The position numbers were made by a program, and so were the translations under genes. A stretch of DNA of 64,000 nt from Parvularcula maris (GTDB taxonomy: Bacteria > Pseudomonadota > Alphaproteobacteria > Caulobacterales > Parvularculaceae). A model generated the notes under the pieces. That model made no database searches, was not told the DNA's origin, and saw only the letters and a program-made list of their open reading frames with translations. Within the stretch, counting starts at the first letter, position 1, and each line of letters starts with the position of its first letter. Shown piece after piece: positions 38,013 through 42,774 of this stretch. The stretch spans positions 434,001-498,000 of the forward strand of contig NZ_JANIBC010000001.1 of the NCBI RefSeq assembly GCF_024505085.1, written 5' to 3'.

Positions 38013-38129
38013 GCCGCCCCCTCAGCCTGCCGGCAGCTCCCCCACCAGTGGGGAGCGAAATAGGGAACAACGGTTGGTTTGCTTCCCTCCCCCATGGAAT
38101 GGGGGAGGTGCCCGAAGGGCGGAGGGGGC
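38013..38129. repeat. Family A repeat, copy 3
   Basis: CCGCCCCCTCAGCCTGCCGGCAGCTCCCCCACCAGTGGGGAGC...CCTCCCCCATGGAATGGGGGAGGTGCCCGAAGGGCGGAGGGGGC. Spans the gap between two convergent genes and touches the ABC permease stop. Confidence 0.85.
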
Positions 38130-39721
38130 TACCGCGCCGCGTTCTCCCGCGAGGTTCGGGCGGCATCCAGCATGCCCTTGAAGGTCGCCTTGCCGCCGGA
38201 CTGCAGGATGCCCGCCCGGTAGATGCGGCCCATGAAGCCGATCAGCAGAAGCGCGGAGCCCGCTAGGATCGCCGTGCCCGCGATGATCTCCCAGACCGGC
38301 GGGTTGGCCGATAGCCTCAGCATCATGGTGACGTGGCTGTAGAGGGGGATGAAGGTCAGGACCCTGGCGATCACCCCGTTGGGGTCGTCGACGATGATGC
38401 CGACAAAGGCGAAGGTCGGCAGCAGCACCAGGAAGGTGAGCGGCGTCGAGAGGTTCTGGGCGTCCTGGATGGTCTCGCACATGGCGCCGATGCCCAAGTA
38501 GACCGCACCGATCAGCAGGTAGCCGAGCACGAAGTAGAGGAAGAAGAACGGCACCAGCGGGCTGCCGGTGACGACGTCGAGCACCAGTCCGAAAAACTCG
38601 TCGCCTGCGCCGAAGACCGATAGGATGGCGATCCCAACGGCGGCGAAGAAGACCATGGGGGTAAGGCCGACCAAGGCCAGGGCGATCAGCTTGCCGATCA
38701 TGAGCTGGCCTGCCGAGACCGACGAGAGCAGCATCTCGACGATCTTGTTGGACTTCTCCTCGATCGTATTGGTCAAGAGCATCGAGCCCACGGAGAAGGC
38801 GCCGAAGAAGAGGACATAGGCGAGACCGAAGGGCAGGAAGCGCTCGATCTGGTCGCGCTGGTTCTGAGCCTCGTCGCCCTCCTGAGTGCCCGCCTTCACC
38901 GTGCGGACGGAGGCGGAGAGGCCGGTGATGCGGACCACCTCGGCCTCGCTGACGCCCGCTTCGAGGAAGGCCCTGGTGCGCAGGTTCTCGCTGACCGCGC
39001 CGCGCACGAAGCCTGCAATGCCGGTGTCGTTGAGGTTGTCCGTGAGGTAGACGGCGCTGATCTCTGGGTCGTCGCCAAAGCCCTGGGGGATGAGGACCAC
39101 ACCGGTGAGGCGGCCGCCATCCGGCAGATCCTCGTCGCCGCGCATATAGGGGGCGTAGGCGGTGCCGATCTCCTCCGCGCCCGCATCGGCGCCCAGCCCT
39201 AAGTCCAGCTCCACCACGCGGTAGCGCAGCTTGGGCTCCTCGATCTTGGGGAGGTCCGCGGAGGCAAGTTCGGAGAGGCGGCGGCGGCCTTCTTCCAGCC
39301 CGCCCGCCTCGAAGAAGGCTTCCCGGCGGGCGCTGGGTCCGACCGAGCTGGTCATGCTGGCGGCGATGGCCTCCGCGTCGGGCATGCCGGGTGCACCGCT
39401 GTCGGCTTCAGGCCTGAAGGGGTAGCCGAGCGCATCGGCGTCGACGATGCCTGCGGTGGCAAGGCCGGTGACGAAGTCGTCCCAGCGGCGCAGCACGCGC
39501 TCCTGCCGATCGGTCTCGACGGCCTCGGCGATGGTCTCTTGGTAGTCGCCGGTGCGGTCGATGATGACGAAGGTCTTGGCCGTCTCGGTGGCCTCCTGAA
39601 GGAAGGCGACGCCTAAGCCCACCGCCATGCCGAGGGGGATCAGGAACAGGAAGGCGATGAAACCGCGGGTGAAGACGTATTTGCGGTACTCGTGGGAGAT
39701 GATCTCGAAAAGGCCGCTCAT
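38129..39721 (-). CDS. ABC-2 type transporter permease, NatB/YhaP-like
   Basis: 530 residues. One membrane helix lies near the N-terminus (about 20-42), then an extracytoplasmic domain of about 220 residues, then a block of about five helices (280-510). This is the ABC2_membrane_3 layout of NatB. It overlaps its ATPase gene by 4 nt. NatAB-type systems export sodium or peptides, or act in stress tolerance; the substrate here is unknown. Last gene of a leftward run that may begin at the receiver protein at 42.8 kb. Confidence 0.9.
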   Translation of the reverse strand: MSGLFEIISHEYRKYVFTRGFIAFLFLIPLGMAVGLGVAFLQEATETAKTFVIIDRTGDYQETIAEAVETDRQERVLRRWDDFVTGLATAGIVDADALGYPFRPEADSGAPGMPDAEAIAASMTSSVGPSARREAFFEAGGLEEGRRRLSELASADLPKIEEPKLRYRVVELDLGLGADAGAEEIGTAYAPYMRGDEDLPDGGRLTGVVLIPQGFGDDPEISAVYLTDNLNDTGIAGFVRGAVSENLRTRAFLEAGVSEAEVVRITGLSASVRTVKAGTQEGDEAQNQRDQIERFLPFGLAYVLFFGAFSVGSMLLTNTIEEKSNKIVEMLLSSVSAGQLMIGKLIALALVGLTPMVFFAAVGIAILSVFGAGDEFFGLVLDVVTGSPLVPFFFLYFVLGYLLIGAVYLGIGAMCETIQDAQNLSTPLTFLVLLPTFAFVGIIVDDPNGVIARVLTFIPLYSHVTMMLRLSANPPVWEIIAGTAILAGSALLLIGFMGRIYRAGILQSGGKATFKGMLDAARTSRENAAR

Positions 39722-40635
39722 GCCGCTTGCTCCTGCGTCTGGTCAGCGCCCGCGAGGCGGAAGAAGATGTCGTGAAGGCGCGCTTCCTCGCGGCCGAAGC
39801 TGATGACGTGGATGCCGGCGGCGAGGATCGCGGCGAGGACGGACTGGCTGTCCGTACCTTCCTGCACTGACAGGGCGTAGCGGTCGCGGCCGAGCGGCGT
39901 GACGGCGGTGATGCCCGCGTGACCGACGAGGCGCTGCGGGTCGTCCGGCGTAGCGAGGATCAGGCGCCGTTCATAGGCGTCGCGCGCCTCCTCGATGGTG
40001 CCTTCGAAGACCTTCTCGCCCGCTTTGATCATGACGAAGCGGTCGCAGAGGCGCTCGGCATGCTCCATGGTGTGGGTGGAGAAGAGCACCGTCGCGCCCT
40101 CCTTCCGCAGGTCCGAGATGAGGTCCTCGAGCAGCTTCTGGTTCACCGGGTCGAGGCCGGAGAAGGGTTCGTCGAGGATCAGGAACTTGGGCGCATGGGT
40201 CAGCACGCTGAGGAGCTGGATCTTCTGGGCGTTGCCCTTGGAGAGGGTCTCGATCTTGTTCTGCGCGTACTGGGTCATGCCGAAGCGTTCGAGCAGCTCG
40301 TTCGCGCGCTTCTTGGCGGTCTTGCCGGGCACGCCCTTGAGGCGGCCGAAATAGGCGATGGTGTCGACGGCCTTCATCTTGCGGTACAGCCCGCGCTCCT
40401 CGGGCAGGAAGCCGACCTTGAGGCGCCCGTCACGCAGGTTCTTGCTGCCGAACAGCTCGATCCGCCCCTTGGTGGGGGGCAGGATGTCCATGACCATGCG
40501 CAGCGTCGTGGTCTTGCCAGCGCCGTTCTGACCGAGAAAACCGACGATCTCCCCCTCGGTGACGCTGAAGGAGAGGTCCTTCACCGCTTTGAACGCACCG
40601 AAATGCTTGGAGACCCCTTCGAGGGTGAGAATCAT
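39718..40635 (-). CDS. ABC transporter ATP-binding protein, NatA-like
   Basis: 305 residues. Walker A GQNGAGKTT, the Q-loop region LPEERGLYRKM typical of NatA, ABC signature LSKGNAQKIQLL and Walker B FLILDEPFSGLDP are visible; a C-terminal extension of about 80 residues follows the nucleotide-binding domain. ATG 40635 is chosen because the conserved ILTLEGVSKHFG follows. Coupled to the permease. Confidence 0.93.
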   Translation of the reverse strand: MILTLEGVSKHFGAFKAVKDLSFSVTEGEIVGFLGQNGAGKTTTLRMVMDILPPTKGRIELFGSKNLRDGRLKVGFLPEERGLYRKMKAVDTIAYFGRLKGVPGKTAKKRANELLERFGMTQYAQNKIETLSKGNAQKIQLLSVLTHAPKFLILDEPFSGLDPVNQKLLEDLISDLRKEGATVLFSTHTMEHAERLCDRFVMIKAGEKVFEGTIEEARDAYERRLILATPDDPQRLVGHAGITAVTPLGRDRYALSVQEGTDSQSVLAAILAAGIHVISFGREEARLHDIFFRLAGADQTQEQAA

Positions 40636-40792
40636 GTGCCGTCTACCTTGGATTACCCGCCATGCCACCTTGCAGGTGGTCGATGACAGTGAGTTTAGCA
40701 AGCTGTCCGTAAATATCGAGTCTCGATGTGCCCACATGCCGCAGGCACGGCCGAGGAAGAAGGTGGTGACCTCCCTCGGCTCGCCGAGTTTC

Positions 40793-40975
40793 CTACCGGC
40801 TGCTTCGCCTTACGGCGGCGAACACGGTCGCCAGCATCAGGACGATCGGTACGAAGAGCACGGAGGTCTTCGGGTCGATCACGCCGAAAAGGGCGCCGAT
40901 GATCGCCAGGAAGGCAAAACCGAAGGCGATTCCCAGAACGGTTGCCGTGAGCAGGCGGTTCTCGCTCCTGTTCAC
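40793..40975 (-). CDS. 60-residue two-helix membrane microprotein
   Basis: GTG start overlapping the preceding 56-residue gene by 4 nt (GTGA). Two hydrophobic helices (about 9-30 and 36-54), short basic ends (NRSENR..., RRSSR), and a GVIDPKTS turn. No family recognised. The overlap argues that it is a real gene. It lies between a putative anti-sigma factor and an ABC exporter on the same strand. Confidence 0.65.
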   Translation of the reverse strand: MNRSENRLLTATVLGIAFGFAFLAIIGALFGVIDPKTSVLFVPIVLMLATVFAAVRRSSR

Positions 40976-41142
40976 CGGCTTTCCCCCTCGCCGCCAAGCC
41001 AGGTGGGGGTGTAGCCGTCCCAGATACCGCCCTCATCGGGCTCGAGGATGATCCCGGCCAGAAGGGTGAGGGTGACCAGCAGCCACACCGCGCTCACGGC
41101 GATGGTGCTCCGGCTCGGCTTGCACTTTGTTTCGTCGATCAT
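40972..41142 (-). CDS. 56-residue single-helix membrane microprotein
   Basis: Short gene reading MIDETKCKPSRSTIAVSAVW at its N-terminus. One hydrophobic helix (about residues 13-33) is followed by an acidic, Gly/Trp-containing tail (EPDEGGIWDGYTPTWLGG). AGGAGA lies about 9 nt before the ATG, and the stop overlaps the next microprotein start as GTGA. No family recognised. Single-pass topology with an external acidic tail is predicted. Confidence 0.65.
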   Translation of the reverse strand: MIDETKCKPSRSTIAVSAVWLLVTLTLLAGIILEPDEGGIWDGYTPTWLGGEGESR

Positions 41143-41196
41143 GGGTCCTGTCTCCTGCGTTTATGCAAAGGGACAGTCGCCAAAGGTGCGATCCTC

Positions 41197-41796
41197 TTAC
41201 AGATCCTCTTCCAGCTCGCGCAGGCGCTGCTCCAGCGCCGCTATCTCGCCTACCTTACGGCGCGCCGTGCGGAGCCCCCAGACCATGCAGCCGGCAACGC
41301 CTGCCAGGATCGGCAGGGCCAGCGCCCAGAACGACCATTCGGGGGTAGCCAAACGGCCGCCGGGGGCCGCGAGAAGCGGACCGAGCAGCATCCCCAACAC
41401 CAAGCTTCCCGGCATCACCCCGTAGAACACCCTGGCGTTGCGCAGCGAGACCTTCGCCTGGCGGATGGCAAAGCGCACAAGCTCTATAGGCGGCAGCGCG
41501 GCAGGCTCGCCGCAGTGCGCTCTCGCCTGCCTGCTCTTGCGGTACTGCCAGGCGATGGACCCGACCAAGAGCAAGGTGAACAGGCCGGGTACACGGAACA
41601 AACCCTGTAGATCAAGGTAGAGCGTCAGAAGGAGCGACGCGAAGCCTAGGGCGTAGCAGGCGCGGAGGAACCGGCGCTGCTGGGCGTGCTCGGCTTCCAC
41701 CACCCGCAACATCTCGCCTGGATCGACGGCCTGGTGCTCCGACTGCCAGAGGGCGGCGAGGGCGTCATCGCCGCCGTGATGGGGCTGGAAGGTCAT
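41197..41796 (-). CDS. Putative anti-sigma factor, membrane protein
   Basis: 199 residues. The cytoplasmic N-terminus (about 1-45) with DDALAALWQSEHQ is followed by two pairs of membrane helices (about 48-85 and 120-170) and a charged coiled-coil C-terminus (IAALEQRLRELEEDL). Position is the main evidence for function: its ATG overlaps the ECF sigma gene stop by 4 nt, the usual arrangement for a cognate anti-sigma. No zinc-binding ZAS motif is visible, so it would be a non-classical type. Confidence 0.65.
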   Translation of the reverse strand: MTFQPHHGGDDALAALWQSEHQAVDPGEMLRVVEAEHAQQRRFLRACYALGFASLLLTLYLDLQGLFRVPGLFTLLLVGSIAWQYRKSRQARAHCGEPAALPPIELVRFAIRQAKVSLRNARVFYGVMPGSLVLGMLLGPLLAAPGGRLATPEWSFWALALPILAGVAGCMVWGLRTARRKVGEIAALEQRLRELEEDL

Positions 41797-42293
41797 GCGG
41801 CAACTCCCATTAGGCGGCGTAGCCTCTCCCGCGCGCGGGTCAGGCGGACCGCGACGTTGCCCGGCGTCAGGCCGAGGGCGTCCGCCACTTCTGGGTCGGA
41901 GAACCCTTCGAGGTGGAGCGTCACGACCTGACGCTGGCCGATCGGCAGCTTCCTGACGGCTTCGAGCAGGCGCTTGCGGGCCAGACTTCGGCCTGCTTCC
42001 TCCTCCGGCCCTGGCAGGTCCGAGGGGGTTTCCGGTTCGAGATCGGCATGGGTGACGCGCGATTCCCGCCGGACGTGACTGACGCAGGTGTTGTGCGCGA
42101 TGCGCGCCACGAAGGTGCGAAGCGACGCCTCTCCCCTGAAGCGGAGCAGGGCTCGCCAGAGCGCGGAGAAGGTGTCCTGGACGAGCTCTTCGGCGAGGGC
42201 CGGGCGCGCCTCATAGCTGGAGCAGATGCGCGAGACCAGGGGACCGTGCGACCGCACGGCCTCCTCGAACATCTTCGCTTCGCCACCTGTCAT
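41793..42293 (-). CDS. ECF-type RNA polymerase sigma factor
   Basis: 166 residues. Sigma region 2 is visible as ALAEELVQDTFSALWRALLRFRGEASLRTFVARIAHN, followed by an acidic linker and region 4 LPIGQRQVVTLHLEGFSDPEVADALG with HTH TPGNVAVRLTRARERLRRL. The start is uncertain (ATG 42293 or 42272; neither has a strong Shine-Dalgarno). It does not look like EcfG. It lies 37 nt after a receiver-domain gene on the same strand and overlaps the putative anti-sigma gene. Confidence 0.9.
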   Translation of the reverse strand: MTGGEAKMFEEAVRSHGPLVSRICSSYEARPALAEELVQDTFSALWRALLRFRGEASLRTFVARIAHNTCVSHVRRESRVTHADLEPETPSDLPGPEEEAGRSLARKRLLEAVRKLPIGQRQVVTLHLEGFSDPEVADALGLTPGNVAVRLTRARERLRRLMGVAA

Positions 42294-42330
42294 CCGATGG
42301 ATAGTCGCGATGGGTGCGGTTCTCTTACAT

Positions 42331-42774
42331 TCAATCGTCGTCCGAACGGGACGAGGAGGAGATCTGGCTGGCCAACGCGCCGACGATATCGGCCATCTCG
42401 GCTGGCTTGCTGAGCCAGAGGGCGGCGGGGTAGCGCCTGGGCAGGTCGGTGAGCAGCTCGGCGTGGCCGGAGTGGAACACCAGCGGCACGCCCTGCTCCT
42501 GCAGCATGTTGGCGAGGGGGAAGACGGTGAGACCGCCAAGGTTCACATCAAGAAGGGCAGCGTCGATCTGGCCCTTGTCGGTGGTGAGCTTGGAGAAGCC
42601 CTCGTCCAGACTGGCCGCCATGAGGACGTCGCCGCCGCAGTTCTCGAGGTTCTCGCAGAGGTCCAGGCCGATCAGGAACTCGTCCTCCACCAAGAGGATC
42701 TTCCTCCCAGCCAGGGGCGGCGGGGTGGTGGTGCGCCCGCTATCCTGCGGTGCCTGAAACAGACCTGACGGCAA
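42331..42774 (-). CDS. Single-domain response regulator (receiver protein)
   Basis: Receiver fold with the acidic pair in ILLVEDEFLIG, phospho-acceptor aspartate in AALLDVNLGG, FHSGHAE (Thr/Ser position) and the conserved lysine in LSKPAEM. There is no output domain; the C-terminus is a Ser/Asp tail. TTG 42774 is proposed because AGGAG sits 8-9 nt upstream, giving 147 residues; the frame is open to a GTG at 42879. No histidine kinase is nearby. Similar stand-alone receivers occur near regulators of stress sigma factors. Confidence 0.8.
   Translation of the reverse strand: MPSGLFQAPQDSGRTTTPPPLAGRKILLVEDEFLIGLDLCENLENCGGDVLMAASLDEGFSKLTTDKGQIDAALLDVNLGGLTVFPLANMLQEQGVPLVFHSGHAELLTDLPRRYPAALWLSKPAEMADIVGALASQISSSSRSDDD

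Follow-up and report, generated by a model that had tools for sequence, protein, structure and literature searches.

An extracytoplasmic function sigma/anti-sigma cassette in Parvularcula maris with twin promoter-like elements and two putative membrane microproteins

In a 64,000-nucleotide (nt) stretch of the Parvularcula maris genome (contig NZ_JANIBC010000001.1, positions 434,001 to 498,000; hereafter the window), from an assembly of 3.19 Mb in 48 contigs, one strand carries genes for a receiver-like protein, an extracytoplasmic function (ECF) sigma factor, a putative anti-sigma, two membrane microproteins of 56 and 60 amino acids (aa), here called m56 and m60, and an exporter of the ATP-binding cassette (ABC) type. 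An initial annotation, which had seen in all of these a candidate for an undescribed signalling module, had the gene layout, the strand, the 37-nt spacing and the 4-nt overlap of sigma and anti-sigma as we confirmed them here; it missed two promoter-like elements, P1 and P2, which stand before the sigma gene and before the microprotein genes, respectively. We suggest, with a probability of roughly 0.6, that the genes working together are those of a cassette of 1.5 kb (40793-42329) comprising the ECF sigma, the four-span anti-sigma and the microprotein pair, with the microproteins as outputs of their own promoter.

P1 and P2 are identical at 25 of 31 positions, including 12 of the 17 spacer bases, and the spacer bases common to both suggest that one element was derived from the other. 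A pattern combining the two, at up to three mismatches, occurs at two places genome-wide, both at this locus, and its reversed control at none. The bare dyad TGTAA-N17-CGACT has three exact copies in the genome, two of them at this locus. The third (G000:C1:236283-236312; L135, L148) lies 247 nt before dnaK and within two inverted repeats; it could be a regulon member or a chance occurrence and, given that position, was not counted as a member. No sigma-70 promoters were found in the region. P1 and P2 are probably promoters of the local sigma itself, with recognition judged from conservation, and the microproteins are likely targets of the sigma because they have their own near-copy of its promoter.

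To follow this conservation, a profile from five sigmas was used, which led to 74 loci in named genomes; with the window, L011, L021, L173 and L174 added, 79 upstream regions were available, three being repeats of the same place. The pattern TG[TA]AA-N17-NGACT was present upstream of the sigma gene in 8 of 12 alphaproteobacterial regions (shuffled sequences, 1/600) and before a hydrolase-NatA-NatB-sigma operon in 47 of 49 gammaproteobacterial regions from Colwellia and its kin (shuffled, 8/2450), and in one of the remaining 18 (shuffled, 4/900). At the other ten spacings between 12 and 22, the 79 regions together yielded a single match. An earlier, stricter search (TGTAA-N16..18-CGACT, at most one mismatch) found 46 of the 49 hydrolase operons as against 13 of 980 shuffles. 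These operons (L049-L107, 49 loci in Colwellia, Thalassotalea and kin) encode an alpha/beta hydrolase, NatA, NatB, sigma and anti-sigma, and are mostly preceded by TGTAATAAA, then A/C/T-GACT at a fixed spacing. At L040, L046, L065, L069 and L105 (Dyella, Psychrosphaera, Alteromonas, Pseudoalteromonas and Arsukibacterium) the gene directly 5' of the sigma encodes a membrane protein of some 230-270 aa; these loci form a separate branch of the group, in which the partner is a different one.

The window sigma falls in a supported clade of five (99/92), four of which have a short membrane protein behind such a site. Aquisalinus luteolus is among the organisms with a related sigma. The group is rare in the class, being found in 2 of 384 other genomes at an expectation value (E) of 1e-34, with at most nine candidates scored per genome. 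The portions available of the open-licence literature on ECF groups, promoters, small membrane proteins, TraB/GumN, sigY, Parvularcula and Colwellia contained no description of it. The sigma itself carries only regions sigma2 and sigma4, as ECF membership requires (Sigma70_r2, E 2.2e-18; Sigma70_r4_2, E 6.8e-14; TIGR02937, 97.5 bits versus a cut-off of 42.9). Its first in-frame ATG lies 9 nt past the -10 element, and of the eight alphaproteobacterial loci that have a site, five show their first likely in-frame ATG 8-11 nt past the -10 GACT, a short distance not seen in L035, L037 and L174. Given this distance, the message from which the sigma is translated may have no leader or almost none, a start at 42272 also being possible in the window; m56, by contrast, has a leader with AGGAG.

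Table 1. Genes and promoter-like elements of the locus (positions within the window).
Feature	Coordinates	Strand	Remarks
Receiver-like protein	42331-42774	minus	147 aa, TTG start; 37 nt to sigma gene
P1 promoter-like element	42299-42329	minus	TGTAAG-N16-CGACTATCC; before sigma; begins 1 nt past receiver stop codon
ECF sigma factor	41793-42293	minus	166 aa; further in-frame ATG at 42272
Putative anti-sigma	41197-41796	minus	199 aa; 4-nt overlap with sigma; four predicted spans; N-terminal LWQ helix
P2 promoter-like element	41171-41201	minus	near-copy of P1; before m56-m60; anti-sigma stop codon inside its TGTAAG
m56	40972-41142	minus	56 aa; one predicted membrane helix; AGGAG upstream
m60	40793-40975	minus	60 aa; GTG start; 4-nt overlap with m56; probably two membrane helices
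Gap m60-NatA	40636-40792	minus	157 nt; hairpins, without clear terminator
NatA-like ABC ATPase	39718-40635	minus	ABC_tran, DrrA1-3_C
NatB-like ABC-2 permease	38129-39721	minus	4-nt overlap with NatA; ABC2_membrane_3

Codon-position composition supports both microproteins as real genes, with third-position G+C of 0.86 for m56 and 0.85 for m60, similar to that of the neighbouring genes. In a hydropathy scan m56 had one span and m60 a pair of overlapping segments that probably represent two spans, and no Pfam or NCBIfam family matched either of them or the anti-sigma. Of the 12 alphaproteobacterial genomes, seven encode a short membrane protein downstream of such a site (the window, L036, G148/L011, G181/L130, L037, L044 and L047). 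L036 has the same plan as the window: sigma, anti-sigma, a second promoter whose -35 holds the anti-sigma stop codon, and a 79-aa protein. The protein of G148 (119 aa) is encoded divergently from the sigma, that of G181 (107 aa) at a distance from it, and those of L037, L044 and L047 have 79-82 aa. The small-protein gene of L047 (Kordiimonas sediminis; minus strand from 7360) is interrupted by an in-frame stop within its first membrane helix, and L173 has a relative of the L037/L044/L047 proteins beside its sigma, but no matching site before the gene.

Similarity tests resolved two clear families, L037/L044/L047 and L011/G181, and weak resemblances of m60 to the 79-aa protein of L036 (z 5.8, 0 of 500 shuffles) and to the L011 protein (z 5.8). 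A profile of m60 and the L036 protein found nothing else convincing among 299 genomes of the order, six other genomes giving matches at E 0.004-0.009 in frames of 161-533 aa. A match to m56 in G128 (41% over 46 aa, E 4.9e-5) was rejected, as it is the N-terminus of a 298-aa frame with no site of the right spacing. As the short proteins fall in separate families, it is the position and the kind of gene that recur, not the protein. Conservation of the two microproteins with this sigma/anti-sigma pair, which the initial annotation had proposed as a check, is found only in part: short membrane proteins recur, but in at least two separate families.

The microproteins could also be effectors and not regulators, that is, small proteins produced during stress to shield or mend the membrane, in the way that other ECF regulons employ membrane proteins, an explanation to which we give a fair hearing but appreciably less than an even chance. 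The genes behind this promoter type are varied and mostly membrane-linked, and differing families in one slot would suit varied effectors. They include the alpha/beta hydrolase and ABC-2 exporter of 47 of the 49 gammaproteobacterial operons, a membrane protein in L043 that is weakly Rce1-like (CAAX-protease-type) and below the Pfam cut-off, and an amidohydrolase in L047. Proteins that we take to be TraB/GumN-like are encoded directly behind the promoter type in G181 (L146) and as the second gene behind the site in G148 (L011:3000-3555). A regulatory role is favored by the place of the pair, which follows the anti-sigma immediately and has its own near-copy of P1, and by the sigY operon of Bacillus subtilis, in which yxlD and yxlE are annotated as an anti-sigma component and a negative regulator (PMC4326333).

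A membrane open reading frame lies 3' of the sigma gene in 72 of the 74 related loci, a count that leans towards finding one, as the frames were picked by position, length and hydropathy. In 45 aligned anti-sigmas, selected from 56 listed, W17 is invariant, and the putative anti-sigma function is assigned from the position, the overlap and the conserved WQ motif. The initial description of a four-helix protein lacking a zinc motif was borne out by the hydropathy scan, which gave four membrane spans, and by the absence of Hx3Cx2C from the sequence; according to PMC7406223, that motif occurs in about half of class I anti-sigma domains. The class I criterion given there is an anti-sigma domain of at least 50 residues outside the membrane, with one length range set aside as possible class II; the first span of the window protein is preceded by some 42 residues, which fall in that range and to which other cytoplasmic helices could add. 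In an AlphaFold2 model (predicted local distance difference test score, pLDDT, 81.5), a short helix at the N-terminus is followed by four long ones. Searched against solved structures, this fold gave no match below E 0.001, only helical bundles with Z up to 8.9, a value uninformative for helical models. Pfam and NCBIfam scans of the 45 anti-sigmas gave scattered weak matches, with DUF2207_C in 19 (best E 8.3e-5) and DUF2721 in 9, among the best 25 of 60 and the best 25 of 39 families.

Several points weigh against the cassette as a unit with a shared promoter. The pattern found in 8 of 12 regions was relaxed after the sites had been inspected, and the dyad is missing upstream of the sigma in 4 of 12 alphaproteobacterial and 17 of 18 other loci; the 17, which include Pseudoalteromonas, Dyella, Lysobacter and Verrucomicrobia, imply that not all of the wider group has this promoter. 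In L039, which belongs to the nearest clade, no short membrane protein gene lies beside the sigma. The microproteins are not one family, the links of m60 being weak and m56 having no convincing relative. Finally, the window anti-sigma matches no known anti-sigma domain and no solved structure.

The receiver, with a Response_reg match (E 1e-4) below Pfam's own cut-off, adjoins the exporter in the congeners G054 and G052, both of which lack a sigma of the group, and a similar receiver was found at none of the 79 related loci. It was accordingly rejected as a part of the module, and a single operon from receiver to exporter is not needed, since P1 and P2 would start new units. The one module originally proposed narrows to the sigma, the anti-sigma and the microproteins, which are tied together by the common promoter-like elements and the recurring short membrane proteins. 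G054 keeps the series kbl, a DUF3291-like gene, NatB, NatA, receiver, desaturase, YggT and folD in order, with the cassette missing between the same neighbors and 108 nt separating the NatA and receiver matches. In G052, a histidine kinase of the HWE type with a PAS domain (L121:5514-6590) lies between receiver and NatA, and may be the partner of the receiver. What lies between receiver and NatA varies.

NatB is present in 8 of 9 other genomes of the genus. The anti-sigma is absent at E 0.001 from 61 other genomes of the family, hence from all other genomes of the genus, and the sigma profile found generic ECFs only in the nine other genus genomes (at most 55 bits, versus 165-280 for group members). 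Because congeners keep both receiver and exporter without the sigma or the anti-sigma, these two are the older residents. The base composition of the cassette is not marked as foreign. The dyad TGTAA-N17-CGACT also lies 59 nt before natA in G054 (L120:9753-9779), with a model score of 12.2 versus 18.7-26.0 for the training sites, and is possibly a relic of a lost cassette. Gain of the cassette here and loss in G054 are indistinguishable, though the G054 dyad hints at loss.

A larger module, lacking only the receiver, would have P2 drive m56-m60-natA-natB as one transcript, with the exporter as the true output as in the sigY operon; we consider this unlikely, if worth keeping in view. The pairing of a NatA-type ATPase (ABC_tran, E 2.5e-27) with an ABC-2 permease (ABC2_membrane_3, E 6e-40) is as for NatAB exporters in Pfam and NCBIfam, and the exporter is called NatAB-like by gene type, sodium being a putative substrate. 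It lies on the same strand, no terminator was called in the 157-nt gap (fold z -1.43), and the G054 dyad precedes natA. Of the 74 loci with a sigma of the group, 49 have a linked ABC-2 exporter, and in L041 the gene after the anti-sigma encodes an ABC ATPase. That gap, however, contains strong hairpins (no Rfam RNA matched in it or elsewhere in the region), the G054 element is weak and its genome has no sigma of the group, the genus keeps the exporter without the sigma, and the four nearest relatives lack it beside theirs. The window NatB also shows hardly any similarity to its gammaproteobacterial counterpart (21%, E 0.006). Exporter linkage is real in the 49 gammaproteobacterial loci; for the locus described here it may or may not be more than the neighborhood of an older resident.

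The B. subtilis operon runs sigY-yxlC-yxlD-yxlE-yxlF-yxlG, YxlD and YxlE being small membrane proteins. The present locus has the same kinds of gene in the same order, with a sigma, an anti-sigma, a pair of small membrane proteins, an ABC ATPase and a permease. As PMC4326333 annotates yxlC as the anti-sigma factor and yxlF and yxlG as ABC transporter and permease, besides the two genes cited above, the same kinds of gene are on record and "undescribed" was too strong a word for the module. The window differs in a second sigma-type promoter that splits off the microproteins, in an exporter that is resident and follows a 157-nt gap, and in microproteins without a Pfam or NCBIfam family. In B. 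subtilis sigM-yhdL-yhdK, an ECF sigma is likewise paired with an anti-sigma in the membrane, and full inhibition requires a second membrane protein (PMC6827917); YhdK is encoded within the sigM operon, whereas the window microproteins stand behind their own promoter-like element. The gammaproteobacterial operons share the sigma/anti-sigma group, the dyad and a linked exporter with the window, but there the exporter genes precede the sigma within a single operon, an alpha/beta hydrolase is encoded with them, and no microproteins were seen.

The anti-sigmas of ECF16 systems are DUF1109 proteins; with E values up to 1 allowed, the window anti-sigma did not match that family. In these systems (EcfF-OsrA, BcrS-AbcS), as PMC8315932 and PMC3420878 describe them, the sigma/anti-sigma pair is autoregulated and a second operon is sigma-dependent, an arrangement like that proposed here, with a -35 of TGTAAC and about the same spacing. 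It is very improbable that a different sigma, for instance one of this type, acts at P1 and P2 while the local sigma reads other sites: the -35 of the ECF16 promoters, (T/C)GTAAC-N17-CGAA in the same sources, is shared, but their -10 is CGAA versus CGACT at P1 and P2, the dyad tracks the present sigma group over two classes, and two of its only three exact copies in the genome are at this locus.

From the sequences we infer the following mechanism for the cassette and function for its microproteins. In the absence of a signal, the sigma would be held at the membrane by the anti-sigma, which would use its short LWQ helix at the N-terminus together with further cytoplasmic helices. A membrane or envelope disturbance would release the sigma, which would then start transcription at TGTAA-N17-CGACT, yielding sigma and anti-sigma from P1, and m56 and m60 from P2, so that the microproteins would be made only when the switch fires. 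By a little over even odds, m56 and m60 would serve as membrane feedback parts that aid recapture of the sigma by the anti-sigma, as YhdK does with YhdL; at slightly under even odds they would, within the same scheme, be effectors that protect the membrane. The exporter may be co-induced by read-through from P2, and the receiver would be a bystander.

A bolder generalization, which we put forward as speculative and rather doubtful, is that the anti-sigma family, with four spans, an LWQ helix and no Pfam or NCBIfam model, defines an ECF group with TGTAA-N17-MGACT promoters in Alpha- and Gammaproteobacteria. In the alphaproteobacterial members the sigma message would be leaderless or nearly so, and the duplicated promoter would give rise to leadered messages for fast-evolving microproteins that close a delayed negative feedback at the anti-sigma.

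The promoter pattern can be scanned for in other genomes, and induction of the microproteins is predicted from it. The defined anti-sigma family is offered for structural work and for naming. Regulated membrane microproteins beside anti-sigmas, such as YhdK, YxlD and YxlE, are known in Bacillus and poorly understood, and a counterpart in Proteobacteria, placed behind a sigma-type promoter of its own, would allow the roles of feedback part and stress effector to be asked about.

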